Source: a virus. Taken from it: DNA of 37,127 nucleotides. The stretch spans positions 1-37,127 of the IMG/VR virus record IMGVR_UViG_3300006733_000007. One strand, written 5' to 3'. A program made the position numbers and the translations under genes. Below the pieces are notes generated by a model. The model worked only from the letters and a program-made list of their open reading frames with translations, ran no database searches and was not told the origin of the DNA. Position 1 is the first letter of the stretch. The number at the start of each line of letters is the position of its first letter. Positions 6,988-37,127 of this stretch are shown here, piece by piece.

Positions 6988-8673
6988 CTACCAGCTGGGG
7001 GTGTAATTGACTACAGCATAGACTTGAGTGCATCTGGTTTCATTATTGAATGCAGGGGCATCAGATAAACCCCTAAAACCAATCTGCAAGTCATTGAGCT
7101 CAGACCATTGCCATGCAGCAATGGTGTTGGGATTCAAAGCATACTCTTTGGAGTAATCATCATAGCTCTGGGTGAAAGATTCCAAGTCACCCTCATACAA
7201 CGTGCCATTGGTTTTTAGCTTGATATAGCCATGTAGGGCTGAGACATTGGTTTTTCTGGCTCTCATATATACAGTAACACTATTGATAGTCCCCACTGGA
7301 TTGCTTGGGTTAGAGATATTATAGAGGTCATATTTGTCTTGAGAGTCACCACCCTGTGTGACATAGGTCGCATCCTCATCAGGGGTGACATCATCCACAT
7401 CCTCCCAGTTTGCCTCACCTCCATTGGGGAATGGGGTCAGTTGGGTCACATCACCGGCTGCATTGGGTCTCAGTATCTCCTCAATGGGGTCTGGGGTGAA
7501 ATACTGTCTGGATGCCTCACTCAGCTGATAAAAAGTCTCAAGAATGCCTGTCCTTGCATCCCAGTCATGCCTGATGCCCTCAATATAATACTCATCGTCT
7601 ATACCGGCATCACTGAGCTTGACTCCAATTCTGGTGCTCAGGTCATATCCCAGCACCTTGGGGAGCAGATTGGCAGGGTCTCTGGCTGGAATGATGTGCA
7701 GGAACTTGACCCTGCTCTTGGTAACATCACCGTATCTTGCCACCAGCAGGGTAACATAAGACAGCACCACTTGATCATTGGTCAGGAGCAGACCTGACCT
7801 GTTAAGGCTCCTTGTACCATAGGCTGTTTTGGAGCTGGCATTTGAGCCAACCTGTTCAACCCCTCCACTCCTTGTGGCTCTGACATCATTGAACAGGAGG
7901 AACTCATCAAGGGCAAAGTCCACAAACCGGTATTTGTCCTCTCCTGAGCTATCCCCAAATATGCACTGGGCAGTGTCATAGGGGCTCTCAGTCCTCCTTG
8001 ACCTGTCCTCAAAAACCATGTAGCCATCAGCTCCCACATAGAGGGCACCTAGCTCTGACTCCATGACCTGATGCAGGTGCTCAAGGGCATTCTGATTGGC
8101 AAAGGCACCAGAGGCAATGATAGTTGTGTCACCAGTGCTGATGGTTCTGGCAGTGGCATCCCACCCCAGAGTGTCAAGGATATTCCCCACCCTTGTCCCA
8201 CTGAGCTCCTGTGCCTCTCCTGCATCATTGAGCAGGAGCCTTGCAAGTGTCTTGGTGCCATCAGCACATCTGACTGTCATTACCGGAGCATTACCACCAA
8301 CCCCTCTCCAGTTGGGAGTCCATGATTCTACATAACCAGTATAGAGGTCAAAATAACTGACACCGGCATCAAAACTCCCTCTGACATTGACCCTTTTCAT
8401 AGTCCTGACATTGGGAGTGTATGACCCACCAGTGTTCTCTGGATAGTAGTCACCAGAGGCATTGTCCAGCACCAGCTCCAGTGTGCCCACCTCCATCCTG
8501 TCTAGCTCGTATTCTCTGCCCCTGCTGGTGTGGAACTCCAGAACATCGGAGCTCACATCTGTCCATGAGGGGCTGGCATCAAAAGGGTCAGAGGCAAAGG
8601 CAATCCTCACCTGTATGGTGGGCTTTTCAGCCACAGGTTCAAAAGCAAACTCAAATTGATAAGGGAAAGGCAT
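6988..8673 (-). CDS. Baseplate / minor tail protein with C-terminal lectin-like domain
   Basis: 561 aa. The N-terminal ~400 residues carry repeated beta-rich stretches (RGREYELDRMEVGTLELVL near 51-69; GYVESWTPNWRG near 112-123) typical of distal tail/baseplate hub proteins of siphoviruses. Residues ~430-561 form a separate beta-sandwich-like domain (INSVTVYMRARK.., ending VYAVVNYTPSW) common at the end of virion proteins and possibly glycan-binding. It follows the tape measure and fibre genes, as expected for a tail-tip component. Exact role is inferred. Confidence 0.65.
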   Translation of the reverse strand: MPFPYQFEFAFEPVAEKPTIQVRIAFASDPFDASPSWTDVSSDVLEFHTSRGREYELDRMEVGTLELVLDNASGDYYPENTGGSYTPNVRTMKRVNVRGSFDAGVSYFDLYTGYVESWTPNWRGVGGNAPVMTVRCADGTKTLARLLLNDAGEAQELSGTRVGNILDTLGWDATARTISTGDTTIIASGAFANQNALEHLHQVMESELGALYVGADGYMVFEDRSRRTESPYDTAQCIFGDSSGEDKYRFVDFALDEFLLFNDVRATRSGGVEQVGSNASSKTAYGTRSLNRSGLLLTNDQVVLSYVTLLVARYGDVTKSRVKFLHIIPARDPANLLPKVLGYDLSTRIGVKLSDAGIDDEYYIEGIRHDWDARTGILETFYQLSEASRQYFTPDPIEEILRPNAAGDVTQLTPFPNGGEANWEDVDDVTPDEDATYVTQGGDSQDKYDLYNISNPSNPVGTINSVTVYMRARKTNVSALHGYIKLKTNGTLYEGDLESFTQSYDDYSKEYALNPNTIAAWQWSELNDLQIGFRGLSDAPAFNNETRCTQVYAVVNYTPSW

Positions 8674-8930: not shown

Positions 8931-9056
8931 AATATTCCTCCTTTATGTTTGAGTGAGCATCATATAATAAGTCACCCCATTGAAATAGTAAGGGTTTCTT
9001 CGTTAATTTGTTTGGCTATTTTTAATCTCCTTCAAATTTATAGCAAAAATCTTCCG

Positions 9057-9743
9057 TTAAGATGATGTTATTGTTTCTACTGCGGTTCCGTTATAGAATT
9101 TCAACTTATTTTCACTGGCATCATACCAGATAGCAGCCTCTGTCGCTGAATCAACATCAGTAATCATCAGTACAAGATAGCAACTTGTTAAAGTGAGATT
9201 TACAAGGTCAGCAGAGCCAGTAAGTGCCAGTCTATTGGTATAAGCAGAAGCTGCATTATCTGTTTGAAATGTCAGAGTATCTTGACATCTTAAAGTAAAT
9301 CCGCCATCAGACCTTGATAATGTTTCCAATCCACCTATATCCTGAACAGCGGCATTTACAGCTCCACCTAATGTTATAGTGTTAGGATAGAAATGCCCTT
9401 GTACCTCAAGTTTTCCACTCACCATCAGGTCATCTTCACTAGCTAAAGAATGAGCAGTTGTAGCAGCATCACCTATTCTAGTATAATCACCCGTTTTGCC
9501 CAATATGGTAGTCTTAGTTCCATCATTGGTGATGGTGAGGGCATCTGACCACTCTGGGGCTGTGGCTCCTGAATTGACTATGAGCATTTGACCATAAGAG
9601 CCAATGGCAACGCTGGTGAAATTTGTGCCATTATCAAAGCCAATATCCCCAGCTGCAGCACTGGCAAATCTGTGGGTGGTTGCTGCCTCCCACTCTGTCT
9701 TGCTCAGGCTGGTTCCAACATCTATATGAGCAAATGCACCCAT
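9057..9743 (-). CDS. Tail fibre-like structural protein
   Basis: 228 aa. N-terminal 60 residues (AHIDVGTSLSKTEWEAATTH) look like a virion-attachment region. The rest is Thr/Ser/Gly-rich beta repeats (GKTGDYTRIGDAATTAH, then KLEVQGHFYPNTITLGGAV) seen in fibre shafts, ending WYDASENKLKFYNGTAVE, a motif frequent at fibre tips. DNA of the C-terminal half is AT-richer than its neighbours, suggesting a swapped receptor-binding module. Confidence 0.6.
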   Translation of the reverse strand: MGAFAHIDVGTSLSKTEWEAATTHRFASAAAGDIGFDNGTNFTSVAIGSYGQMLIVNSGATAPEWSDALTITNDGTKTTILGKTGDYTRIGDAATTAHSLASEDDLMVSGKLEVQGHFYPNTITLGGAVNAAVQDIGGLETLSRSDGGFTLRCQDTLTFQTDNAASAYTNRLALTGSADLVNLTLTSCYLVLMITDVDSATEAAIWYDASENKLKFYNGTAVETITSS

Positions 9744-26570: not shown

Positions 26571-27119
26571 TCATTGCTCCACCTCCTTTAATTGGTCTTG
26601 CCTCTCTTTGGTGGGGGCATCCCCATAGAAATCCTCAGGGCTCACAGCGATATAGGTCTTTTGAGATATGCTGCCCTGAATGTTGAGGTCTCTCCTCTCC
26701 CTCTTGCCATACTTGTCTGGAGATTTCCTTTCCTGCAGCCAAGCAGCTGCCTGCCAATCTCCCTTGGCAACAGAGACCTCCTCAGTCACTGTCCCTGTTC
26801 TGGTGGTGATGGTCTTGGTCTTGATGACCTGTCCACCTATGGCAGCCTGCTTGATGAGCTCAAGGCATTCCTGCTCCAGTTCCAGCTCTGCCCTTTTTAC
26901 TGCCACCACAAAGTCCACGAGCATCTGGTCATGCTTATTGATGGGCATTCCCAGTTCCAACAGACCCTCAGCCTCAGCCCCTGCCTTTTTCCACCTCCTG
27001 AGAGTCTCATCTGAAATCCTGCAGAGGGAGCAGGCATCCTTTTCAGTCAGCCCACCTCTCACAGCTTGATAGATGCTTCTGAGCTTGGTCTTAGTCAGTT
27101 TTGTCTGCCTGCCTGCCAT
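26571..27119 (-). CDS. terS: Terminase small subunit candidate
   Basis: 182 aa. N-terminal HTH: AVRGGLTEKDACSLCRISDE (about 19-38) followed by TLRRWKKAG, then a helical oligomerisation region (DFVVAVKRAELELEQECLEL, 69-88) and a basic segment near YGKRERRD. This layout is standard for phage small terminases that bind the packaging site. First gene of the late block and 1.4 kb upstream of terL. ATG 27119 has GGAG 6 nt upstream. Confidence 0.82.
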   Translation of the reverse strand: MAGRQTKLTKTKLRSIYQAVRGGLTEKDACSLCRISDETLRRWKKAGAEAEGLLELGMPINKHDQMLVDFVVAVKRAELELEQECLELIKQAAIGGQVIKTKTITTRTGTVTEEVSVAKGDWQAAAWLQERKSPDKYGKRERRDLNIQGSISQKTYIAVSPEDFYGDAPTKERQDQLKEVEQ

Positions 27120-27128
27120 AATGACTCC

Positions 27129-27156
27129 ATTTTATCACCTGTTCTCCCAGTGTCAA
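27129..27156 (-). promoter_or_regulatory. Possible late promoter (TTGACA-16-TAAAAT)
   Basis: Minus strand TTGACA (27151-27156), 16-bp spacer, TAAAAT (27129-27134), just before terS. The -10 box is only 9 nt from the ATG, which would make the mRNA almost leaderless, so it may be fortuitous. A CTTACTGAANNGGTAA motif lies just upstream (27174-27189). Confidence 0.4.
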
Positions 27157-27177: not shown

Positions 27178-27315
27178 CTATTCAGTAAGTTCTGGGCTTG
27201 CTGTTTCGATAAGTCCTTGACCTTTCAATGTTATGATTGCCCCCTGAGCCCTCAGGACTGGCGTGTTCAGGGTAACATTCCCATCCCTGTCTGTCAGTGC
27301 CTCTAGAGCTTTCAT
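27178..27315 (-). CDS. Small protein at the island edge (45 aa)
   Basis: Found by eye: MKALEALTDRDGNVTLNTPV, ending SPELTE. ATG overlaps the upstream stop as ATGA. Mixed charged/beta composition, no family recognised. It is the last gene of the island; the next feature is the putative late control site. Confidence 0.6.
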   Translation of the reverse strand: MKALEALTDRDGNVTLNTPVLRAQGAIITLKGQGLIETASPELTE

Positions 27316-27731
27316 GATTCTTTCCATCTCAGCTGTATGAGGGATTCTTTCAACTCGTCAATTTGTGATATTAGGAACTCATAAGTTCCCACGTCATCGG
27401 TACTTCTGCTTATCCACTGTTTGTCTAGGAACTCGTATAGCCACTTTATATCGGCTTGGAACTGGGCTTTGGCTACACCATTTAGTTGACGTTGACAAGC
27501 GTGGCAATCTTCATCACCAAAACCCTCTTTATCATGAAAGGGGCAATCACCACAAACCGCTATTATTATCGCTACTTCTGTCAGCACCCCATCTTTATCC
27601 ATAGCAAGGAAGGCTTCTTGGATTGCTTTGTCACACTTTCTAGCCCATTCTTCAGGCTTCATTATCACATCAGTTTTAGACAACTCAAGAAATTTGGTAA
27701 ATTCTTTTTCCAGTATCTCTTTAATCTCCAT
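27312..27731 (-). CDS. Island protein with Cys pairs (139 aa)
   Basis: Start at 27731 with AGGAGG. Contains CGDCPFHDKEGFGDEDCHAC (residues ~60-79), a compact four-Cys cluster also holding His, likely a metal site. Helical elsewhere. Follows the PP-loop gene. Family not recognised. Confidence 0.65.
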   Translation of the reverse strand: MEIKEILEKEFTKFLELSKTDVIMKPEEWARKCDKAIQEAFLAMDKDGVLTEVAIIIAVCGDCPFHDKEGFGDEDCHACQRQLNGVAKAQFQADIKWLYEFLDKQWISRSTDDVGTYEFLISQIDELKESLIQLRWKES

Positions 27732-27771
27732 TGGTAGCCTCCTTAAAGAAACAACTCTTATTCTTTAATCT

Positions 27772-27791
27772 CCCCCTCTTGGCTAAGATAC
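27772..27791. repeat. Island junction motif, variant copy
   Basis: Plus strand CCCCCTCTTGGCTAAGATAC, close to the 18-mer at 29076 and 29834 (one insertion, one change). It spans the stop of the PP-loop gene and precedes the start region of the 139-aa gene. Confidence 0.5.
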
Positions 27792-28544
27792 TTACTTCCT
27801 TTTAATCCACCAATCAAATAGTTCTTGACCTGTTTTGTGTTGATACTTCAAGGGCTTGCCACTTTTACTCATGTGATTGCGTGACACTCTTGCATCAACT
27901 ATGTGGTCACAAGCCCTACGCCACAAGTAAGCAATCTTCGGAAATCTAATGGCTTCTTCTATGGGGTTTGCTCTATAGGGGCACATCACACAACCGATGC
28001 GTTTATACCCCTCGTCATATAGAGAACAGTGGGCTAGTTTGTTCTCCCGAAGATACTGCCATATATCATAATCGTCAAAATCGTATATTGGCTGAACATA
28101 GAACTTTGTTTTATTATTACCCCTACCTTGTCCAACAAAGCATTGCTGTTTTCGTCTAGGGCTCTCTGCTTTGCGATTTCCTAACACTACCACACGGTTT
28201 TTACCACCAGCTTCCTTGATAACTGTACAGCACCACCGATGGTTACGAAATGGCAAGCCTTTTCTATCCACTTGCTGCCAGAACCCCTTGGCGTGGTAAT
28301 CCCATATAACATCAGGGTAATTCAGCTTAATGAAGTCGTGTATCTCTTTAGGGTCTATCGGGCTAACACAGTAATGGGCATCGAACTTAACCCCTGCTTT
28401 AACAGCCAAGTCATATATAGCCACACTATCCTTACCGCCTGAGAACGCTAGATAATACCCTTCCTGTGGCTCCCAAGCCTGTAGTAAAGAGATAGCAACC
28501 TCTACCTTATTCTGCCCTTCAAAGTTAAGCTGTTGCAAGCCCAC
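27792..28544 (-). CDS. PAPS-reductase / DndC-like PP-loop protein
   Basis: 250 aa. PP-loop FSGGKDS (34-40), LGNRKAESPRR (121-131), plus cysteines at WCC (105-106) and GCVMC (175, 178) that could hold an Fe-S cluster. This set is found in phage-encoded phosphoadenosine-phosphosulfate-reductase-like proteins and in DndC. The start is GTG 28544 after GAGGGGGG. In the island it neighbours an adenine methyltransferase. Activity could be sulfur transfer or an adenylation step; DNA phosphorothioation needs partners that are not seen here. Confidence 0.85.
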   Translation of the reverse strand: MGLQQLNFEGQNKVEVAISLLQAWEPQEGYYLAFSGGKDSVAIYDLAVKAGVKFDAHYCVSPIDPKEIHDFIKLNYPDVIWDYHAKGFWQQVDRKGLPFRNHRWCCTVIKEAGGKNRVVVLGNRKAESPRRKQQCFVGQGRGNNKTKFYVQPIYDFDDYDIWQYLRENKLAHCSLYDEGYKRIGCVMCPYRANPIEEAIRFPKIAYLWRRACDHIVDARVSRNHMSKSGKPLKYQHKTGQELFDWWIKRK

Positions 28545-28573
28545 CTACTTTCCCCCCTCTTTATCCCTCTATA

Positions 28574-29053
28574 TTACCCTAGAAACTTGGCTCTAAGGTC
28601 AAGGTATTCTTTGTTATCCACATATTGCATCAGGTGTAATTTATCCAATTCACCAAATATCTGCTTTATCTCAGCCTTATTATCTGGTATCAGGGGCAAT
28701 AATGTAGTAACAGCATCTTCGTTTGAAGCACAAAAGGCACAGCCACCATCAATGGCAAGTGGGTTATACCAACACTCTACTACTGTGTCGTTTGTCTTTT
28801 GCATCGCCTTACAATGTTGACACCATAATTTCTGTATCTTCTCCCTCAACTCAGGTCTATTCAATCTCTCAGGCTGTAACCTGTCTATAATTTTCCTTAC
28901 GCAGTTATCTAAACGTATGAAGAACTTTGTTGTAGGATATATACCAAGTTCATCGGGGTTATCAAACATTTCTGATATAGCATCAGTTCGTTCTTTCTGA
29001 AACTCGCCTATTAAAGTATTTTCTGGTTCTAGTATTACTTTATCATCAGCCAT
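28574..29053 (-). CDS. Island protein with two Cys pairs (159 aa)
   Basis: CQHC (78-81) and CAFC (105-108) with a conserved-looking stretch WYNPLAIDGGCAFC, suggesting a zinc finger within a mostly helical protein. C-terminus NKEYLDLRAKFLG resembles the ending of the 56-aa island gene (YDAIKAKYLAKGG). Start has GAGGGGG 8 nt upstream. Function unknown. Confidence 0.65.
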   Translation of the reverse strand: MADDKVILEPENTLIGEFQKERTDAISEMFDNPDELGIYPTTKFFIRLDNCVRKIIDRLQPERLNRPELREKIQKLWCQHCKAMQKTNDTVVECWYNPLAIDGGCAFCASNEDAVTTLLPLIPDNKAEIKQIFGELDKLHLMQYVDNKEYLDLRAKFLG

Positions 29054-29075
29054 CTTATCTACCCCCTCTTTATTT

Positions 29076-29093
29076 CCCCCTTTGGCTAGATAC
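29076..29093. repeat. Island junction motif, copy 2
   Basis: Plus strand CCCCCTTTGGCTAGATAC, identical over 18 bp to 29834-29851. It spans the methyltransferase stop and lies upstream of the 159-aa gene. The two copies are read in different frames, so the match is at the DNA level. Confidence 0.75.
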
Positions 29094-29625
29094 CTAACTC
29101 TATATCGCTTTCCACCTCGTTACCCCAACAATCCCAACCGTCTACTTTTCTGCGAGCAAAGAGTTCTATGCGTGGTAGGTCGCCCATAAGTGTGACAATA
29201 CGTTCTCTTATCTCAGTTGGTTTCTTGCTGTGCTGTAACCTTGGAGACATAATGACCTGCATAACCTCATTATTAGCAATTTCTAATTTCCCCTTTACAC
29301 CTAGCAAGCAAATCTCCGTACTTGGTTTTGTGTAGTGTCCGATTCCGTAAACGCAACCAAAATTATTAGAGTTCATCTTTAGCCAATTAAACGCAATGGT
29401 TTTATATTTGAATCCCCAACTACTCATTACGTCTAGTGCTTCAGGTAATAAAGGCGAAGTTGCCCATAGAAATAAGTAGCAGTTCTTGTCTACGATATCC
29501 TTAATTCGCAACCCCTTTAACTCGTCTTGCGTCATAGTAGGATATTGGCTTTCAGCAGAACCCCATATACCCTTATCGTTATAACTCCAAGGTGGGTCAG
29601 CATATATTATCTGGTATTTTTTCAT
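29086..29625 (-). CDS. MT-A70-family adenine N6-methyltransferase
   Basis: 179 aa. Catalytic DPPW at residues 10-13, FLWATSPLLPEAL (52-64), YTKPSTEICLLGVKG and HSKKPTEIRERI (near 122-133), ELFARR and GWDCWGNE at the end: the full MT-A70 signature. Such phage enzymes methylate adenine in DNA (N6), usually to block host restriction. ATG overlaps the preceding stop. Target sequence cannot be read from the gene. Confidence 0.93.
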   Translation of the reverse strand: MKKYQIIYADPPWSYNDKGIWGSAESQYPTMTQDELKGLRIKDIVDKNCYLFLWATSPLLPEALDVMSSWGFKYKTIAFNWLKMNSNNFGCVYGIGHYTKPSTEICLLGVKGKLEIANNEVMQVIMSPRLQHSKKPTEIRERIVTLMGDLPRIELFARRKVDGWDCWGNEVESDIELGI

Positions 29626-29828
29626 GGTATTTGGTTTAACCTTTCTTGGAATTCGTTAATGTTAATCTCTACTTCTGCCCCATCAATAGGTTCGTATGCT
29701 TCAGTTTCCATTGGTGTAGGTTCATGTATAGGGCAAGGTTCATAACCCCGCAAAGTACCATTTATTTTCCCGCTTACGACTCTCGCATAATATTTAGAGT
29801 TTATATAACATCTACACTTCGGTTTCAT
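29622..29828 (-). CDS. Small Cys-containing island protein (68 aa)
   Basis: KPKCRCYINSKYYARVVSGK at the N-terminus and EPCPIH near residue 30 may form a metal site; the C-terminus is acidic. Preceded by a GGGGG-type ribosome site that follows the junction motif. Overlaps the methyltransferase start. Family unknown. Confidence 0.6.
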   Translation of the reverse strand: MKPKCRCYINSKYYARVVSGKINGTLRGYEPCPIHEPTPMETEAYEPIDGAEVEININEFQERLNQIP

Positions 29829-29982
29829 CTTCGCCCCCTTTGGCTAGATACTTGGCTTTGATTGCATCGTAGTCGCTTCTCTCTAAGGATATGCCCAACA
29901 TATTTGTAGCCTGCCTGTGGCTTTCACTCTCTATCTCAGCAAATATCCCCTCAATCTCAGCCTTATTATAGAGTCTCCTCAT
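29812..29982 (-). CDS. Small island protein (56 aa)
   Basis: Start ATG 29982 overlaps the HNH stop (ATGA) with AAGGAGATGG upstream. Helical (IEGIFAEIESESHRQATNML) and ending AIKAKYLAKGGEDE. The junction motif lies inside its last codons. First gene of the island; its upstream half keeps backbone-type context. Confidence 0.55.
   Translation of the reverse strand: MRRLYNKAEIEGIFAEIESESHRQATNMLGISLERSDYDAIKAKYLAKGGEDETEV
29834..29851. repeat. Island junction motif, copy 1
   Basis: 18 bp identical to 29076-29093. Here it encodes the end of the 56-aa protein (KYLAKGG) and supplies the ribosome-binding region of the 68-aa gene. Confidence 0.75.
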
Positions 29983-30257
29983 TCCATCTCCTTTTTGTGG
30001 TGCCTTGGATTGTGGCACCTCCTGCATTCCAGTGTGCAGTTCTCTCTGGTGGTCTTTCCCCCATCACTGAGGTCTTTGATGTGAACAAGGTCAAGACCCC
30101 TCCAGTCCGGTCTCCGGTGACAGGTCATGCAAAGCCCCTCTGATTCCTGCACCAGCTGGGCTTTGAGCTCTCTCCTCCTTTTCAGCTCATCAACCCTCTC
30201 TTGCCTCTGGCTCTTGGGGAGGGTCACTCCATGTGGGAGGAAAGAATAATCACTCAT
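29979..30257 (-). CDS. HNH endonuclease
   Basis: 92 aa from ATG 30257 (GAGG 6 nt upstream). CMTCHRRPDW, GLDLVHIKDLSDGG, NCTLECRRCHNPRHH carry the HNH zinc and catalytic His residues. HNH proteins beside terS assist terminase cleavage at cos or pac in many phages. Here the island separates it from terS, suggesting the island was inserted between once-adjacent genes. Confidence 0.88.
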   Translation of the reverse strand: MSDYSFLPHGVTLPKSQRQERVDELKRRRELKAQLVQESEGLCMTCHRRPDWRGLDLVHIKDLSDGGKTTRENCTLECRRCHNPRHHKKEME

Positions 30258-30444
30258 CTGCAGCCTCACTAAATTTGATATGGGCATGCTCTGTCTTGAC
30301 ATACAGGATGGCAGCTGTGTCCCTGCCCTCCAGATGGGAGTCACAATAATAGTCCACTTTTTTCTGAACCTCACCCTCACTGAGGTCACCCCTCATGACC
30401 ACCTTGATGGTGACTGCTGTCAGATGTAGCTCATCCTCAGTCAT
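30250..30444 (-). CDS. Hypothetical protein (64 aa)
   Basis: MTEDELHLTAVTIKVVMRGD.., alternating beta and helix (VQKKVDYYCDSHLEG). Good start (GGAGGGAG). Overlaps the HNH start by 8 nt. No family recognised. Confidence 0.7.
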   Translation of the reverse strand: MTEDELHLTAVTIKVVMRGDLSEGEVQKKVDYYCDSHLEGRDTAAILYVKTEHAHIKFSEAADE

Positions 30445-30455
30445 TACTCCCTCCT

Positions 30456-30785
30456 TTATGGGTGGTCATCCAGCACCCTGCTCTGCCCCCAATCGTCTGG
30501 GAGGTGCTTGGATTTTTCCTCTTCTGCCTTGTTCTCCCCCAGATTCTGCATTAGCTTTTCCATGTCAGTGCTGAACTTGTCCTCCTCCCCCACTGGTAGC
30601 TCTGATTTCTCTACAACATATCTGACAAACTCAACCCAGCCCTCCATGAGCTTTGTCCAGTAATCACAGAAAGCCTTGGCTTCCATCCAGACCACTATCT
30701 CACCCACTGTGGTCTTGAATGTGAGATAAACCCTTTTCTCCTGATGCTTGTATTCCAGTCCTATAGTCAGGGGCATGCTCATCAT
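30456..30785 (-). CDS. Hypothetical protein (109 aa)
   Basis: ATG 30785 overlaps the preceding stop; AGGAGGTGG is just upstream, and a further Met at 30776 is possible. Begins with a beta-rich stretch (RVYLTFKTTVGEIVVWM), ends acidic. No family recognised. Confidence 0.65.
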   Translation of the reverse strand: MMSMPLTIGLEYKHQEKRVYLTFKTTVGEIVVWMEAKAFCDYWTKLMEGWVEFVRYVVEKSELPVGEEDKFSTDMEKLMQNLGENKAEEEKSKHLPDDWGQSRVLDDHP

Positions 30786-31225
30786 CCCACCTCCTGTCCC
30801 CATGGAAGGGTCTTGCCCAGATTCTCTGGGGTGATTTCTGCTCTCCTGATATGCCCTTTCAGGTGTCCCTCCATGGACTGGATAATGTTGGCATGCTGCC
30901 TGAAATTGGGGAGCCTGAACTGAGGCTTGATTTCCTTTCCACAGAACCTGCACAGGAGAGTATCTCTTTGCAAAAAGCAGTCCACAAGATAGAGGTCTTT
31001 CACCTCCTGCAGGAACCCCCAGAACTCCCTGCCATCACTCTCTTTCAGCCCAAATACCTGAGTGACCTCAGCTGGAGCAAGGATGTAGTATTGCAGGTCA
31101 TGGTCAGACTTCACCCTGAGCATGCGGTCAGACCTTTGCCCCATCACTGTGCCACTGCCCCCTGATTTCATATTGTGCCCCAGATACACCCCATCATTAA
31201 CCTTGATTCTGTCTCCCTTTTCCAT
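30782..31225 (-). CDS. Zinc-finger-containing protein (147 aa)
   Basis: Start at 31225 with AGGAGG. CRFCGKE near residue 93 plus His residues in RQHANII and EGHLKGH suggest a C2H2-like zinc site. N-terminal region is beta-rich (GDRIKVNDGVYLGHN). Function unknown. Confidence 0.65.
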   Translation of the reverse strand: MEKGDRIKVNDGVYLGHNMKSGGSGTVMGQRSDRMLRVKSDHDLQYYILAPAEVTQVFGLKESDGREFWGFLQEVKDLYLVDCFLQRDTLLCRFCGKEIKPQFRLPNFRQHANIIQSMEGHLKGHIRRAEITPENLGKTLPWGQEVG

Positions 31226-31592
31226 ATTGCCTCCTTTGGTTGTTCCCACTATTCAGGTGATAAGCCATGGACTTGACCGCTGACTCCTCCCACTCCATCA
31301 CATCTGAGATGGAGGCTCCCAGCCAGAATGCACACTCCTGTAACCTCCTGCAGTCAATATCCACTGAGATGACAATGACTTTCTCCCTTGGTTTGAGTTG
31401 TTGGATTGCCCTGTCTATATCTGCCTTGAGCTGGAGGGGGTATTCAAAAGGTGCCTTGGCTGTCCCTCTCCCCTTTTTCCCCTGAGAACCTGCATCTCCA
31501 TCCCCTCCCATGGGATTCTTGCCCTCCTCAAGGAGGTCATAGTTAGCCATTAGCCTCCTGAGCAACCCCACTGAATAGTCTCTCTTTCCCAT
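31197..31592 (-). CDS. Sigma-70 region 4-like / ArpU-type regulator candidate
   Basis: 131 aa. ADIDRAIQQLKPREKVIVIS followed by QECAFWLGASISDVMEWEES has the length and spacing of a region-4 HTH (helix, turn at LGAS, recognition helix). Phage proteins of this sort (ArpU family) control late transcription. It sits at the end of the early block, fitting a late-gene activator. Similarity is judged by pattern only. ATG overlaps the upstream stop (TGATG). Confidence 0.55.
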   Translation of the reverse strand: MGKRDYSVGLLRRLMANYDLLEEGKNPMGGDGDAGSQGKKGRGTAKAPFEYPLQLKADIDRAIQQLKPREKVIVISVDIDCRRLQECAFWLGASISDVMEWEESAVKSMAYHLNSGNNQRRQYGKGRQNQG

Positions 31593-31921
31593 CAGGGCTG
31601 GTTTTCCTGCCTGATTTTCGTCTGGTCAAACTTGACACTGCTGGGCAGAATAAGCCCTGAACCAGTCACTATCTCCTTTTTAGTTTTTTGTTGTGGAGCT
31701 GGGACAGGCATCTTGATTTGGATGATGCCATTCTGGGATGCAAAGATAAAGGCATGAATCATCCTCTCACAGTCCCTGCACAGCCCCATCTTGTTGTCCT
31801 TGCCCACCCACCTGTTGCATTCAGGGACAGGGCATCTCTTGAATTGTTCCTCCTCATGCCTGATTGGGGGCTCTTTGCCATCCCCTACAGCCTGCCTGTG
31901 CTCATCATCTCTTTTGCCCAT
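31592..31921 (-). CDS. Zinc-finger protein (109 aa)
   Basis: CPVPEC (residue 30) and CRDC (48-51) pair into a zinc site inside a short domain; the C-terminal half is extended and basic (PQQKTKKEIVTGSG). Start has GGAGC 7 nt upstream. Unknown function. Confidence 0.65.
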   Translation of the reverse strand: MGKRDDEHRQAVGDGKEPPIRHEEEQFKRCPVPECNRWVGKDNKMGLCRDCERMIHAFIFASQNGIIQIKMPVPAPQQKTKKEIVTGSGLILPSSVKFDQTKIRQENQP

Positions 31922-32090
31922 TCAATGCTCCTTTCAATATGATATTGGGTTGTCTGTGCATGGGGAACCTTGCCCCACAGTCTTGACACTTTGCCCAGAG
32001 CTTGTTCTCAGCATCCAGCTCCTCCCTCAGAATCCCATTGCATGCTGGGCACTTCCCCACACAGTTGCCTCTATTCGGAAACAGTCCCAT
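31905..32090 (-). CDS. Small zinc-ribbon protein (61 aa)
   Basis: CPACNG (14-17) and CQDCGA (35-38), a clear ribbon, with basic C-terminus (KGALNGQKR). AGGAGGTG upstream of ATG 32090. Overlaps both neighbours. Confidence 0.7.
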   Translation of the reverse strand: MGLFPNRGNCVGKCPACNGILREELDAENKLWAKCQDCGARFPMHRQPNIILKGALNGQKR

Positions 32091-32538
32091 AAGTCATCAC
32101 CTCCTCTGCCACTATTATAGCACCGGCTCCATTGTCACCCTTTGCATGGAGCCCATGCTTTTTCATCCAGTTCTGCAGCCCCCCATCTCTGGCAATCTCA
32201 ATCTGGACATCCTCCACCAGCCTGGAATAATATCTCCTCTTGAACAGCTCCCTGTTGTGCACTTGTCCATGGTGGATGCGACACAGGAGGATTCTCTGCT
32301 GAAACTTGGGGTGGGAGTCTCTCCCTTTCTTAACCTCCCCAAAGGGTTCATGGAACTCCAGATGCCCAATGCTGCCACAGACCCCTGTTTCCTCATCAGG
32401 GAACTGGCAGACACCATCACAATCAATATAAGCCTGCCTCCAGTTGGGGTGCCTCATGTTCCTGAGGGACATTCTGGTGGAGAACTTTCTCCAGTCAAGG
32501 TCTTTGTGTGGCACCGGCAATCCTCCTTGTCTGGGCAT
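32071..32538 (-). CDS. HNH-like zinc-binding protein
   Basis: The reliable part includes CDGVCQFPDEETGVCGSIGH and LEFHEPFGE, then LLCRIHHGQVHN, which has the layout of HNH nucleases (paired Cys, HxxH, C-x2-H/HH). C-terminus is helical. The start is uncertain: ATG 32538 is used here (155 aa); ATG 32454 after AGGAAC would give a shorter form. Could process DNA or be a structural zinc protein. Confidence 0.6.
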   Translation of the reverse strand: MPRQGGLPVPHKDLDWRKFSTRMSLRNMRHPNWRQAYIDCDGVCQFPDEETGVCGSIGHLEFHEPFGEVKKGRDSHPKFQQRILLCRIHHGQVHNRELFKRRYYSRLVEDVQIEIARDGGLQNWMKKHGLHAKGDNGAGAIIVAEEVMTYGTVSE

Positions 32539-32770
32539 CCTTGAGAGACTTGACATCCACATAGGATTTTCTGGCTCCATCAAGGATGAGCTCCTTGTGC
32601 TCATCCTTGATATAGTGGAGGGTGAATGGCTTGCCCCCATGCTCAAACCATCCCCTCTTGCATCTGCCACAGCTCCAGTGCTTGAGGCTCTTTGCCTCCC
32701 CCTCTTTTCTGGGCACCCTGTAGGTGTCAGTAAAGGTGTGGCAGAAAGGGCACATCTTGTTTGAGCCCAT
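32495..32770 (-). CDS. Zinc-ribbon protein (91 aa)
   Basis: CPFC (residues 7-10) and CGRC (34-37) around a TYRVPRKEGEAKSLKHWS linker, then GGKPFTLHYIKD. Start at ATG 32770 lies 2 nt beyond the previous stop; the Shine-Dalgarno is distant, so translational coupling is likely. Confidence 0.65.
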   Translation of the reverse strand: MGSNKMCPFCHTFTDTYRVPRKEGEAKSLKHWSCGRCKRGWFEHGGKPFTLHYIKDEHKELILDGARKSYVDVKSLKDAQTRRIAGATQRP

Positions 32771-32771
32771 T

Positions 32772-32975
32772 CTATTTGGCAAAGAGCTCCTCCAGCTGGT
32801 GGAGAGCTGTGACCTCATTGCTCTGGGCTATCTTGAACCCTGTCTCCATCCCCACCAGCCAGCAAATGACCTCATGCTCAGCCAGCCCTGCTGCATTTAC
32901 TGGGTCAATCCCTTGAGCCTCATATTTCTGTTGTCTGGTCTCAATCTCCTCATTGACATCATCCATGTTAATCAT
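32772..32975 (-). CDS. Hypothetical protein (67 aa)
   Basis: ATG overlaps the preceding stop (ATGA) with AGGAGGTG upstream. Acidic N-terminal helix, hydrophobic middle (VICWLVGMETGFKIA). No family recognised. Confidence 0.7.
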   Translation of the reverse strand: MINMDDVNEEIETRQQKYEAQGIDPVNAAGLAEHEVICWLVGMETGFKIAQSNEVTALHQLEELFAK

Positions 32976-33226
32976 CTGGGCACCTCCTTGAATGCTTTGA
33001 GTGGGATGACCCTCAAGACCACCCCCTTGATTTTCTGGGCAGGGAACCTGAGAGCCACAGACCTTGCTATCCTGTAGAGGTGGGGAAAGGGCTTGACCCC
33101 CTGCTTGTTGGTGTAGAGGATTTCCACCTCAAGGGTCTCATGGAACATCCTGCTCTCTGCTAGCCCCACCTTGGGCTCTTTGTGACCATCCCAGATGGGG
33201 GCTTTAATCTGAAATCTGGTTGCCAT
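32972..33226 (-). CDS. Hypothetical protein (84 aa)
   Basis: Basic, beta-rich (LEVEILYTNKQGVKPFPHLY, IKGVVLRVIPLKAFK). GGAG 5 nt before ATG 33226. No family recognised. Confidence 0.7.
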   Translation of the reverse strand: MATRFQIKAPIWDGHKEPKVGLAESRMFHETLEVEILYTNKQGVKPFPHLYRIARSVALRFPAQKIKGVVLRVIPLKAFKEVPR

Positions 33227-33491
33227 CGGACTCCACCTCTACATCACATTTTCTGGGTTTGAAAGCATCTTTTCTGTAATTGTGAGTGCTGCCTGATGTC
33301 TCTCCCCCACCAATCATGTCTCTGGAACCATCATCATATTCAAGCTCTACAGCTCCATATATACCACTGGGAGGAGCATGGAAAGTCACTCTGGTGACCA
33401 ACCTGAACTGCCTGCTCACCTGAAAAGCCTGCCTGCACCTCTTTCCCAACCACCATCTCCTGTATCTCTCCTCAAAGTCCTCTCTATACAT
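33204..33491 (-). CDS. Hypothetical protein (95 aa)
   Basis: Start at 33491 with GGAG 8 nt upstream. Very basic Trp/Arg N-terminus (RYRRWWLGKRCRQAF) suits nucleic-acid binding; acidic C-terminus. No family recognised. Confidence 0.65.
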   Translation of the reverse strand: MYREDFEERYRRWWLGKRCRQAFQVSRQFRLVTRVTFHAPPSGIYGAVELEYDDGSRDMIGGGETSGSTHNYRKDAFKPRKCDVEVESDGNQISD

Positions 33492-33975
33492 CTTGATACT
33501 CCTTTGCCCACACCACTGGATGGATAGAGATGACAGTCTGGTCAACATTTGCCTCTCTGGCTGTTGCCCTCAGGGAGAGCATGTGCCAGCAGTCATCATC
33601 AAAGAGGAGACCACAGCCAATGTCCCCATCTTTCTGGGGCAGGCATAGCCCATCCAGCCATGGTTTTACAGCTGAAATCATGCCATCCAAGTCCCTGACC
33701 TTGTATTTGCCCTTTGAGCTGGGGACAACATTGAACATGACCTCACAGTGGTATTTGAGCACAGGCATTCCTGCCTGCACCAGCATGCCCAGATAATAAG
33801 CCTCAGTTCTTGCTGTCTTTTCATGCTCACTCCTGACTGCCCAGTGCATCTTTCTCAGCTCATTGGGATAGAGCTTGGGGTCTGGTAGCCTGTAGAACCT
33901 GAAAATGAGGAGCTGCTTTCCAGTGAGCTGGATGCCCACTGCCCCCAGACCCTCCAGCTCTTGCTCTCTGGTCAT
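33484..33975 (-). CDS. RusA-like Holliday junction resolvase
   Basis: 163 aa from ATG 33975 (ATGA overlap). RDLDGMISAVKPWLDGL (residues 94-110) and LLFDDDCW (123-130) match RusA, where three Asp residues bind metal (here candidates Asp95, Asp97, Asp126-128). The usual Asn of DLDN is Gly here. RusA-type enzymes resolve branched DNA before packaging. Placed among replication genes, as in lambdoid phages. Confidence 0.75.
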   Translation of the reverse strand: MTREQELEGLGAVGIQLTGKQLLIFRFYRLPDPKLYPNELRKMHWAVRSEHEKTARTEAYYLGMLVQAGMPVLKYHCEVMFNVVPSSKGKYKVRDLDGMISAVKPWLDGLCLPQKDGDIGCGLLFDDDCWHMLSLRATAREANVDQTVISIHPVVWAKEYQDV

Positions 33976-34379
33976 CTTTTGCACACTATCCCCCAGTGCT
34001 TTTCCAGCTCCAGTGCCCAAGCAGGGGCATCTTTCTCCGTCATATACTGTGCCACCTGCCCTTTGAACAGTTCCAGAACAGCCTCCCTGTCCATTTCCAG
34101 CAGGTCATCCACCAATGCCCTCATTGCCCCCTCTCTGACCTGCTTTGCCCATACTGTCCAGCTAACAGTATTTTTAGGCTGGAATAACATCTCAGTTGTT
34201 ATGTAGGCAGAGGCAACTACTCCCCACAAAGCTCTCACCATCCCATCCTCTACAGCTACCCCTGAGGGCTTGAGAACATCCAGCATCTTGGACAGGGTAT
34301 CACTCAGCTGGGGGATGTCCTCTGGCTTGATGTCTAGCCCTATGACTGCCTCTTTGATGAGGTCTCTTTCCTCACTCAT
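33972..34379 (-). CDS. Hypothetical helical protein (135 aa)
   Basis: ATG 34379 after AAGGAGA. Long helices (PQLSDTLSKMLDVLK, REGAMRALVDDLLEMDREA). Between the helicase loader and the resolvase; could be a replication accessory factor. No family recognised. Confidence 0.65.
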   Translation of the reverse strand: MSEERDLIKEAVIGLDIKPEDIPQLSDTLSKMLDVLKPSGVAVEDGMVRALWGVVASAYITTEMLFQPKNTVSWTVWAKQVREGAMRALVDDLLEMDREAVLELFKGQVAQYMTEKDAPAWALELEKHWGIVCKR

Positions 34380-34531
34380 TTTCTGTCTCCTTTCAATATA
34401 TTGGGAGGGCAGGTGCATTCACTGCAGGGCTGCCCACATCTCCTGCAGGTGTAGAGCCTCTGGAGGGGTTCACCTTTCCAAGTCCTGAGCTGCTCCCACC
34501 TGACCTTTCTGCCACACCTGCATCTAGGCAC
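34376..34531 (-). CDS. Small zinc-finger protein (51 aa)
   Basis: Found by eye. GTG at 34531 (AAGGAAAAGGG upstream) overlaps the helicase-loader stop. Reads MPRCRCGRKVRWEQLR.. with CRCG (4-7) and CRRCGQPCSECTC (29-41), seven Cys in 51 residues, probably one or two zinc sites. Stop overlaps the next ATG. Confidence 0.65.
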   Translation of the reverse strand: MPRCRCGRKVRWEQLRTWKGEPLQRLYTCRRCGQPCSECTCPPNILKGDRK

Positions 34532-35345
34532 TGCCCTTTTCCTTTCTGAACTCCCCTGCCTCTATGACCACCACCTTGGCTCCCTCTATCCTCTGGAGCC
34601 TGCTGGCTATCATCCAGCTAATGGGGCTGTCTTTGTCCCCCTCCTCCTTGGGGAGCTGCTGGTTGGTGGTAACCACCAGAGGGAGCCCCTCCCTGTAGCG
34701 GTAATCCACAATAGCCTCCAGCCTTTCCTTGACCCAACCTGAGGGCTTTTCCCTGCCAAGGTCATCCAGCACCAGCAGACCCACCTTGCAAAAGAAATCA
34801 AACTGCTGGTGATAGGGCATGGTGCAGTCTTTGTCCATGGAGCTCCTGAGCTCATCCAGCAGGGTGGGAACATAAGCATATCTGGCTGGTCTCCCCTGCT
34901 TGAGCCACCTCTTGCAGATAGCCACAGCCAGATGGGACTTGCCCCTGTCCACATCTGCCATGATGGTCAGCCACCTGACCTCTGGGAGGTCGGATGCCAG
35001 CTTGGAGGCTGCATTCCATGCCTCCTCAGTGCTCTTGTCCCTCAGCTGATACTTGGCAAAAGTCCAGTCATTAGTTCCCTTTGGTAGCTGGCAGTATTTC
35101 AGCCATGTTGCCTCCCTGTGCTTGCTCATCCTGGTGATGGTGCACAGGCAGGGCACAGTCTTGGAGAAATCAGGCTTTCCATTCACCAATGGGTGCAGGT
35201 AACCAGTTCCCCCACAGTGAATGCACTCAGGGTCAGCATAGCCATCATGCTCCTGCTCATCCCACTGAATGCTTGAGCCTAGTTGTGAGGCTGGGGCTGT
35301 CTTTGCCCTTGGGATTATATCTCCCACCCTTTCCGGTCTGTCCAT
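34524..35345 (-). CDS. DnaC/IstB-like helicase loader ATPase
   Basis: 273 aa from ATG 35345 (AGGAGGGCAGACA leader). N-terminal zinc site CIHCGG (41-46) and CLC (66-68), as in DnaC-type loaders. P-loop position reads ADVDRGKSHL (130-139): the first Gly is Ala and the loop has only one Gly before Lys136. Walker B LLVLDDL (190-196), sensor-like TTNQ (226-229). No helicase gene is visible, so it probably recruits host DnaB to the phage origin. Confidence 0.85.
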   Translation of the reverse strand: MDRPERVGDIIPRAKTAPASQLGSSIQWDEQEHDGYADPECIHCGGTGYLHPLVNGKPDFSKTVPCLCTITRMSKHREATWLKYCQLPKGTNDWTFAKYQLRDKSTEEAWNAASKLASDLPEVRWLTIMADVDRGKSHLAVAICKRWLKQGRPARYAYVPTLLDELRSSMDKDCTMPYHQQFDFFCKVGLLVLDDLGREKPSGWVKERLEAIVDYRYREGLPLVVTTNQQLPKEEGDKDSPISWMIASRLQRIEGAKVVVIEAGEFRKEKGSA

Positions 35346-36369
35346 TGTCTGCCCTCCTTTTCCTCTGAATATCCTTGGCAATCCTCATCCAGTTCCAGAT
35401 TTGCTGAGCTGGTCTTGATGCCTTGGTAAGGGGCTCATCCAGCTTTCTGGCAGCCCAGAGCTTGGATTCTGCGAGCAGGTCAAGATTGGGGTGTTCTTTT
35501 TTCAGCCCAACAAGTAGCTGATAGCACTCTCCCAGACCCAGCTTGAATCCTTTGACCCCTCTCCAGAACTTGATGAGTTCCTTGTCCTTTTCTGGCAGGT
35601 TCTCAATAGCCTGTCTGGTGTCATCATCTATAATAATGGTATTGGTATTTTCTTTCCTTTTTATAGGTGAGCCTGACTTGAGCCTGCTGCTCTTACCCTT
35701 TTGGTAAGTTTTACTGGTTACCATTTCAGTAAGCTCTATTATATCAGCCTCAGAAAGCCTGAACCATTCTCCCTTGAATTGCTTGGGTTTGAATTTTCTC
35801 TTGAGTTCCAGCTCCAGAGTGGCTGCCATGGGACTCTCTTTGGTGAGTAATACTGAGAGCTCAAGGGGCATCCCTTTATAATCTGCCAGCCTTTCCTGTA
35901 GGTTCTGGGTGTAACCTATTTTATAGAGGTCATCAGGTGCCTTGAGAACATACACCCAGCCATGCTCTTTGTGACCCCTTGGTTTGTCTCCGGTATGCAG
36001 GTCATGGATATTGATACCTATGAGATACTCCAGCCTCTTTTTCCTAAACACCTTTGACCTTGAGACCCTCCACTGGTCATAATCTTTATTGAACCAGTAT
36101 CTCTTGCCATCAGTCCCAATAACCTTGGCATCAAGGAGCCACTGGAGCTCCTGCTTGATGTGGGTCTCCCCCACTCCAGCTGCCTCAAAGTCTTTCTGGA
36201 GAGGGATGACCGCATGCTTTCTGTCTGAATCACCCCTGCATCCCCAAGATAGCCTGAGGATGAGCAGGATGATGCCCAGCTGCCTCTTGGTGAAGTCACA
36301 GGACATCAGCTCCTCAAGGAGTTCATGGGCAATTCTCAGGTGGGGGTCAGTTGGCTGTGGATTCGCCAT
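35257..36369 (-). CDS. Rep_O-like replication initiator with internal T5orf172/GIY-YIG domain
   Basis: 370 aa from ATG 36369 (AGGAGG 6 nt upstream). Residues ~10-105 match phage Rep_O N-termini (IAHELLEELMSCDF, LLILRLSWGCRG, winged helix to about 85). Residues ~137-213 are a T5orf172/GIY-YIG-like unit: WVYVLKAPDDLYKIGYT, QERL, Glu near 186-188, KGEWFRL. Residues ~260-345 are a separate helical tail (ELIKFWRGVKGFKLGLGECY, QQIWNWMRIAKDI). It overlaps the loader gene by 89 nt. Initiation at an internal origin is likely; the nuclease-like domain is unexpected. Confidence 0.8.
   Translation of the reverse strand: MANPQPTDPHLRIAHELLEELMSCDFTKRQLGIILLILRLSWGCRGDSDRKHAVIPLQKDFEAAGVGETHIKQELQWLLDAKVIGTDGKRYWFNKDYDQWRVSRSKVFRKKRLEYLIGINIHDLHTGDKPRGHKEHGWVYVLKAPDDLYKIGYTQNLQERLADYKGMPLELSVLLTKESPMAATLELELKRKFKPKQFKGEWFRLSEADIIELTEMVTSKTYQKGKSSRLKSGSPIKRKENTNTIIIDDDTRQAIENLPEKDKELIKFWRGVKGFKLGLGECYQLLVGLKKEHPNLDLLAESKLWAARKLDEPLTKASRPAQQIWNWMRIAKDIQRKRRADNGQTGKGGRYNPKGKDSPSLTTRLKHSVG
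35695..35735. other. Putative origin region inside the initiator gene
   Basis: Clustered palindromic sites: CTTACC-CTTTT-GGTAAG (35695-35711), GGTTACC (35716-35722) and, on the minus strand, CTTACTGAAATGGTAA (35718-35733). DNA here and upstream to 35640 is AT-rich compared with its surroundings. Lambdoid phages keep their origin inside the O gene, which is the analogy used. Confidence 0.35.
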
Positions 36370-36571
36370 TGAGCCTCCTGTTCCTCCTCTGCCTGTAGCC
36401 CTCAACCCTGATGTCAGTGGCTACATCTGACAGGTCAACCTTGGGGGTGGGGAACCATCCACACTGCAGGCATTCAGCTTTCTCCAACCATGCCCTGAAC
36501 ACATTGCCCCCACACCTTGGGCACCTGTTTGGGATTTGCTCCTCCATGGGCAAGAACTGTGGCTTGAGCAT
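36347..36571 (-). CDS. Zinc-ribbon protein (74 aa)
   Basis: Start at ATG 36571 after AAGGAGGCACAGACA. CPRCGGN (17-20) and CLQCGW (34-37) make a zinc ribbon; the C-terminus is Arg/Asn-rich (RQRRNRRLNGE) and may bind nucleic acid. Lies between the split recombination gene and the initiator. Confidence 0.7.
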   Translation of the reverse strand: MLKPQFLPMEEQIPNRCPRCGGNVFRAWLEKAECLQCGWFPTPKVDLSDVATDIRVEGYRQRRNRRLNGESTAN

Positions 36572-36599
36572 TGTCTGTGCCTCCTTTTCAGTTGAGAAA

Positions 36600-36623
36600 G
36601 AGGGGAGGCTTTCACCTCCCCTC
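36600..36623. other. Leader hairpin before the 74-aa zinc-ribbon gene
   Basis: GAGGGGAGG and CCTCCCCTC form a perfect 9-bp stem with a six-base loop, followed on the minus strand by CAACTGAAAAGGAGGC and AGACAATG, like the early hairpin leaders. Confidence 0.7.
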
Positions 36624-36631
36624 ACAGTCAC

Positions 36632-37127
36632 CTATTCAAATGGGAACTCATCAGGGGTGAGGTCTGCCTCACTCTGCCCTGCATTCTCCGGTGGGTCTTT
36701 CTCCCCAACCCCTGCCTGCTCTTTCAGCTGCTCAAGGGTGACCCCTGACTCCACAGTCACCAGCAGTTTTTCAGCCTCCTCAGCGGTCAGCTGGCAGTCA
36801 ATCAGGGACTTGCCAGATTTCCTGAACATGATGGCAACCATCCCCCCAAGGTCAGCTGGGGCATAGTTCATGAGCTTGGCTGCAGTGGTGATTTTCTGGA
36901 TGGTCTCTGCCAGCTTTTTATTGGCTGGTGCTTTGGGTGGTTGCTTGCTGTCTGTCTTGGGCTTGGGTGAGGATGTGGTGAACTTGCCTGAATCAATGAC
37001 ATCCCTCATGTCCTCAAGGTCTTGGGTGAATATCTCAGAGAGCCTGCCCACTGACAGGGCTGCATCCACCTGTGACCTTTTCTTTGCCATCTTGAGGAGG
37101 GTATTCACCTGAGAAAAGATGTCATCA
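36632..37127 (-). CDS. Recombination-module phage protein, C-terminal part
   Basis: Continuation of the gene at 1-590 (same 123 bp at both ends). This part holds DIFSQVNTLLKMAKKR, EIFTQDLEDMRD and, after a Pro/Lys/Thr linker, two helical segments and the acidic end ADLTPDEFPFE. The final DEFPFE is similar to SSB C-terminal tips that recruit replication and repair partners. The GTG seen near 37108 is not the true start. Confidence 0.85.
   Translation of the reverse strand, partial: DDIFSQVNTLLKMAKKRSQVDAALSVGRLSEIFTQDLEDMRDVIDSGKFTTSSPKPKTDSKQPPKAPANKKLAETIQKITTAAKLMNYAPADLGGMVAIMFRKSGKSLIDCQLTAEEAEKLLVTVESGVTLEQLKEQAGVGEKDPPENAGQSEADLTPDEFPFE
37005..37127. repeat. Right copy of 123-bp terminal direct repeat
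   Basis: Identical to 1-123. Contains the middle of the split 320-aa gene. Confidence 0.95.

Follow-up and report, generated by a model that had tools for sequence, protein, structure and literature searches.

MT-A70 methyltransferases occur in phages as orphans (phrog_359), with the same full-length catalytic domain and with neighbours that differ from phage to phage. The prophage enzyme M.EcoPA8orf6770P requires the adjacent protein PNB-2 and prefers 16S rRNA (PMC10810198), and a related phage enzyme, which that paper cites, is reported to methylate GATC. PP-loop proteins of phrog_424 carry the label 'phosphoadenosine phosphosulfate (PAPS) reductase' and are often reported as viral cysH, and the CysH-like protein of type IV-B CRISPR systems, which has the PP-motif SGGXDS and lacks the catalytic cysteine, has been proposed to adenylate substrates (PMC8175902). 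An MT-A70 and a PP-loop gene lie together in a block of six or seven short minus-strand genes, between an HNH endonuclease gene and the gene for the terminase small subunit (terS), in the phage record IMGVR_UViG_3300006733_000007. The window analysed is the whole 37-kb stretch (37,127 nt), in which most long coding open reading frames (ORFs) are on the minus strand, packaging, head and tail genes included. The original prediction regarded the block as an acquired island whose genes could form one DNA-modification or anti-restriction cassette with a chemistry outside the known Dnd, Ssp and BREX sets. The results described here support the first part of this proposal and not the second: the block is likely a horizontally acquired accessory ('moron') segment in the slot upstream of terS, with its enzymes acting separately. 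Each gene is a separate accessory of a kind common in phages, and as a system they are ordinary.

Composition and restriction-site avoidance

The limits of the island were set by two-model segmentation, in which the maximum-likelihood (maximum-scoring) segment was taken. A single segment, 27345-29908, dominates the window with a log-odds of 355, compared with 35 for the next best. The GC content is ~41% in the island (0.39-0.44) and ~51% in the backbone (0.50-0.53), the observed/expected ratio of CpG is about 0.6 compared with 0.08, and TpA is about 1.0 compared with 0.48. The edge on the HNH side lies at most about 75 nt from the start of a 71-aa ORF, and the edge on the terS side falls within the last codons (3' end) of the gene for a 139-aa protein. 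The sharp change in composition and CpG that had been predicted at both edges is therefore borne out by GC, CpG, TpA and the segmentation score. A 49-aa ORF next to terS probably lies outside the block because its composition is backbone-like. The second island-like segment of the window, 8964-9520, is far weaker (log-odds 35, GC 38%, CpG 0.44) and overlaps the 3' part of a gene (228 aa) located downstream of the gene for the tape measure protein.

Acquisition is supported independently by the distribution of restriction sites. Counted on both strands, the backbone contains 2 GATC (340 expected), 2 GGCC (397), 2 GGWCC (171) and 8 CCWGG (387) sites, and the same four sites are all absent from the island, compared with 17, 16, 7.5 and 10.5 expected (about 51 summed, both strands). 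GAAG, in contrast, is avoided 14-fold in the backbone (24 observed, 334 expected) and is not avoided in the island (28 observed, 22 expected). Since island and backbone both avoid GATC, GGCC, GGWCC and CCWGG, the donor was most likely a phage that had faced comparable Type II restriction; in the simplest account, only the history of this backbone includes the loss of GAAG and CpG. Two relatives, L007 (a related phage with the N-terminal domain of the 159-aa protein encoded in the block) and L008 (the closest in capsid and in the terminase large subunit, terL), avoid GATC, GGCC and GGWCC, do not avoid CCWGG or GAAG, and are intermediate in CpG. Avoidance of sites has been described before, chiefly of orthodox Type II sites, and is more extreme in non-temperate phages (PMC6286503). 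The contrast between backbone and island in the sites avoided should be useful for dating and sourcing acquired phage segments.

The backbone (1-27120 and 30030-37127) shows extreme CpG depletion (observed/expected 0.08), a CA/TG value of 1.49 and a loss of GAAG/CTTC, which is not a palindrome. This CpG depletion, together with the loss of GATC, GGCC, GGWCC and CCWGG as well as GAAG/CTTC, points to a host in which restriction systems are numerous and CpG methylation may occur. Searches for the host with terL against genome contigs reached 51% at best (a Chloroflexota metagenome-assembled genome), and nothing close was returned for the portal protein in 400 Chloroflexota genomes or for the 159-aa protein in one class of that phylum (249 genomes).

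The pre-terminase slot

The island occupies a place that is often taken by a DNA methyltransferase in phages whose terminases are related. In terL-related loci, 9/16 methyltransferase ORFs end at most 1 kb before terL; the other 7 are located further upstream, and no such ORF lies downstream. The hidden Markov models for methyltransferases were built for this analysis from a small number of seeds and could overlook divergent members. L008 (57% identity in terL, 68% in capsid), which is devoid of the island, carries a 432-aa ParB-N6/N4 methyltransferase directly before terS. The methyltransferases of L008 and of other terL relatives thus share the genome position of the island; however, the ParB-N6/N4 enzyme is of a class unrelated to MT-A70, and a PP-loop gene was not found in the L008 stretch. 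This phage exemplifies how an unrelated block of accessory genes can come to fill the methyltransferase slot before the terminase.

The MT-A70 methyltransferase

Membership of the MT-A70 family is indicated by a PF05063 score of 109.7 bits (cut-off 23.9) and by the presence of YADPPW; the catalytic domain is complete and PADLOC matches the protein to MTase_II (1.3e-66). Relatives occur in 350 phage records (Pasteurella phage Pm86, 56%), and the solved relatives are of the METTL3/MTA1 type, with RNA N6-methyladenosine enzymes among them. From its sequence, the protein would be an S-adenosylmethionine-dependent N6-adenine methyltransferase acting on DNA or rRNA. Protection of GATC is an unlikely purpose because the window holds a single GATC, at position 7773.

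A special case of acquisition, and no alternative to it, is that this one enzyme acts on rRNA and not on phage DNA, with the adjacent 68-aa protein as its partner, and alters translation or lysogeny. We hold this as a tentative possibility. M.EcoPA8orf6770P and PNB-2 provide the precedent, RNA enzymes are among the solved relatives, and the 68-aa gene is probably translationally coupled to the MT-A70 gene because the two overlap by 4 nt (ATGA). On the other hand, the 68-aa protein has no family match in the profile libraries and no relative among the fetched loci, and the related phage enzyme cited in PMC10810198 is reported to act on GATC.

Elsewhere, a 162-aa protein without a methyltransferase core (L174:6609-7097) ends in the C-terminal tail of MT-A70, IELFARQKTEGWDVWGNEVENDIEL; it lies 300 nt before a protein with the N-terminal domain of the 159-aa protein.

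Co-occurrence of the block genes

In a joint cassette, MT-A70 would methylate and the PP-loop protein would add sulfur or another group, protecting virion DNA, and the small Cys-pair proteins would supply metal, sulfur or substrate specificity. All the ORFs that were named in the original prediction exist on the minus strand (MT-A70, the PAPS-reductase-like protein, the 159- and 139-aa proteins with Cys clusters and three small ones). In favour of a cassette, the gene order is tight and operon-like, and the catalytic motifs of both enzymes are intact. The gene set, however, is unique to the window. In the 80 phage loci closest in MT-A70 (46-58% identity), neither a PP-loop gene nor the 159-aa domain occurs within a distance of about 5 kb, and MT-A70 is absent from all of the other PP-loop loci examined (~82; 0/82). 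Similarity to the window protein was the basis on which the PP-loop loci were collected, and they are cut off at contig ends, so that co-occurrence counts hold within about 5-8 kb. Neither 50,697 phage records nor IMG/VR contained a relative of the 139-aa protein, and literature searches yielded no description of this gene set. The genes are thus largely scattered and unassociated.

Partners from known systems were likewise missing. Family scans of the island neighbours found no Dnd or Ssp partner and no desulfurase domain, the PP-loop protein falls below the DndC cut-off (TIGR03183, 16.6 compared with 290.4 bits) and does not qualify as SspD (11.7 bits, E 0.037), and its BREX match is confined to positions 135-318 of the 779 of BrxP, with no BREX match for the other island genes. 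With one GATC in 37 kb, protection at that site would also be pointless. A link to methylation in general is marginal: DNA methyltransferases of various classes that are unrelated to each other (C5, N6/N4 or Dam) make up 11/139 of the genes adjoining the PP-loop gene, compared with 3/131 of the controls taken from these loci (p = 0.03), and in L089, L110 and L132 an N6/N4 methyltransferase overlaps the PP-loop gene, but within-locus permutation of the PP-loop/methyltransferase position was not significant (p = 0.11). Because MT-A70 and PP-loop genes do not co-occur in the other loci examined, the 139-aa protein is without relatives and the methyltransferase link is marginal, joint conserved chemistry is not supported; what is seen is a loose clustering tendency of such accessories. 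The joint cassette is in our judgement improbable. Somewhat less probable still is a lineage-specific system in which the two Cys-pair proteins would work with the MT-A70 enzyme and a PP-loop [4Fe-4S] enzyme to add both methyl and sulfur groups to phage DNA, or to host tRNA/rRNA, the phage being already purged of most Type II restriction sites.

We favour an acquired segment in which the two enzymes would act separately, and each may modify nucleic acid on its own. Four points weigh against this. The insertion event is not directly visible because there is no empty-site sequence at high identity, the nearest relative being 57% identical in terL. The shared avoidance of palindromes could instead postdate acquisition, should selection act more slowly on GAAG and CpG. 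The operon-like order, with the overlap between the 68-aa and MT-A70 genes, leaves room for a joint function, and PP-loop genes do have some association with methyltransferases, though a weak one.

Two PP-loop loci have an arrangement of their own: in L089:3730-8062 and L132:4695-7992 the PP-loop gene is flanked by the overlapping N6/N4 methyltransferase and a C5-methylase-like gene, and L089 also has terL downstream. DUF5131 was considered as a PP-loop partner and rejected, as the association is weak (11/85 loci, 6/145 controls) and the domain is absent in the island.

The PP-loop protein

SGGKDS (S35-S40) and the cysteines C105, C106, C185 and C188 of the PP-loop protein are invariant across 35 aligned relatives, and C105/C106 (CC) and C185/C188 (GCxxC) align with the cluster cysteines of the assimilatory adenosine phosphosulfate (APS) reductase 2goy. 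The two proteins share the fold and these four cluster-binding residues. They differ in that the window protein has an intact ATP-pyrophosphatase loop, the full SGGKDS, where 2goy has a degenerate SGAED, and lacks the C-terminal catalytic cysteine motif, ECGLH, which is present in 0/97 family members, the window protein included. An AlphaFold (AF2) model with a predicted local distance difference test (pLDDT) score of 90.6 was compared by Foldseek to known structures and matched APS reductase 2goy, FAD synthase and the tRNA-thiolation enzyme TtuA with TM scores of about 0.5-0.57; the probability of 1.00 to FAD synthase, TtuA and an ATP sulfurylase subunit, together with SGGKDS, places the protein among the PP-loop ATP pyrophosphatases. 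Homology to phrog_424 is full-length (for instance, 48% with L005 and 42% with Methanosarcina virus MetMV), with the same SGGKDS, CC and GCxxCP. The window protein differs from this group only in its genomic company, the pairing with MT-A70 being found in no other examined locus.

From these motifs, the model and the analogy with described proteins, the probable role of the PP-loop protein is ATP-dependent adenylation or thiolation and not that of a sulfate-assimilation reductase. It would use ATP to adenylate a substrate and would probably transfer sulfur via a [4Fe-4S] cluster, with no reduction of PAPS or APS. Adenylation is likely because the same logic applies to the type IV-B CysH-like proteins (PMC8175902); the likeness to these is by description, and csf genes were not seen in the window.

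A viral cysH, an auxiliary metabolic gene that boosts sulfate assimilation, is very unlikely here. The gene shares the Pfam domain, and published surveys name such genes cysH or PAPS reductase (PMC8319345, PMC8879888, PMC9301287), but the curated NCBIfam cut-offs are missed (cysH 44.2 compared with 165.1, APS_reductase 41.8 with 235.3, PAPS_reductase 32.6 with 254.2), and both the absent ECGLH and the full SGGKDS stand against it. Since the family is without the catalytic cysteine motif and keeps the ATP-pyrophosphatase loop, there is a sequence-level reason to doubt the sulfate-assimilation role of genes reported as viral 'cysH', at least in this large family, for which a nucleic-acid or adenylation role is worth considering.

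Junctions and other features of the block

An assembly chimera or local quirk of composition is hardly credible, for although this is a single metagenomic record of which a second copy was not found, the sequence passes back into one and the same backbone at each of the two junctions, the first island start (ATG 29982, of the 56-aa ORF) overlaps the HNH stop, and avoidance of four restriction sites is common to island and backbone. The features of the block and its flanks are collected in Table 1. A search of the window for tRNA genes was empty.

Table 1. Coordinates of the accessory block, its genes and the flanking features in the window
Feature	Position	Strand	Remarks
Accessory block, likely acquired (refined limits)	27312..29982	(-)	Compositional core 27345-29908; segmentation, CpG/TpA/GC, GAAG unavoided inside
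HNH endonuclease	29979..30389	(-)	PF01844 2.1e-6; backbone side of island
56-aa ORF	29812..29982	(-)	ATG at 29982; 71 aa with start 30027
68-aa orphan	29622..29828	(-)	Overlaps MT-A70 start
MT-A70 N6-adenine methyltransferase (predicted), 179 aa	29086..29625	(-)	PF05063 1.9e-31; phrog_359 9.3e-77; DPPW intact
159-aa protein	28574..29053	(-)	Conserved N-terminal peptide, orphan Cys-pair C-terminal part
PP-loop/PAPS-reductase-fold protein, 250 aa	27792..28544	(-)	PF01507 2.6e-25; phrog_424; SGGKDS, CC, GCxxCP
139-aa orphan	27312..27731	(-)	Paired CxxC motifs
49-aa ORF	27178..27327	(-)	Backbone-like by segmentation
Sigma70-like promoter, TTGACA-16-TAAAAT	27129..27156	(-)	Directly before terS; 11/12 matches; TG precedes second hexamer; consensus match only
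Terminase small subunit (terS)	26571..27119	(-)	phrog_4102 8.6e-23; backbone side of island

The 159-aa protein is composite. Its first ~40-50 residues (within 28868-29053) belong to a peptide, FQKERTDAISEMFDN..GIYPTxKFFxRLD, that is nearly invariant across unrelated phages and has no Pfam, PHROG or NCBIfam family match. The peptide stands alone as a 56-57 aa ORF in L007 (4610-4783) and L172 (616-786) and is fused to other small, variable proteins in L173, L174, L175, L208 and L210. The C-terminal part, with the CxxC..CxxC arrangement CQHC...CAFC, is an orphan, and the AF2 model of the whole protein is helical and of low confidence (pLDDT 61). The paired cysteines of the 139-aa protein read CGDCPFH...CHAC.

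Ribosome sites of the GGGGG style, which had been predicted for the island, hold for three of six genes: a G5/G6 run precedes the 68-, 159- and 250-aa genes, AGGAG(G) precedes the 71- and 139-aa genes, and MT-A70 has neither type. Two of the G-runs lie in a perfectly repeated 18-bp sequence, CCCCCTTTGGCTAGATAC (29076-29093 and 29834-29851), and a 34-nt repeat (85% identical) is found at 29936-29969 and 28650-28683. These repeats within the island suggest that some of its small genes arose by internal duplication. A stretch NKAEIxxIFxE is common to the 56-aa ORF and the C-terminus of the 159-aa protein.

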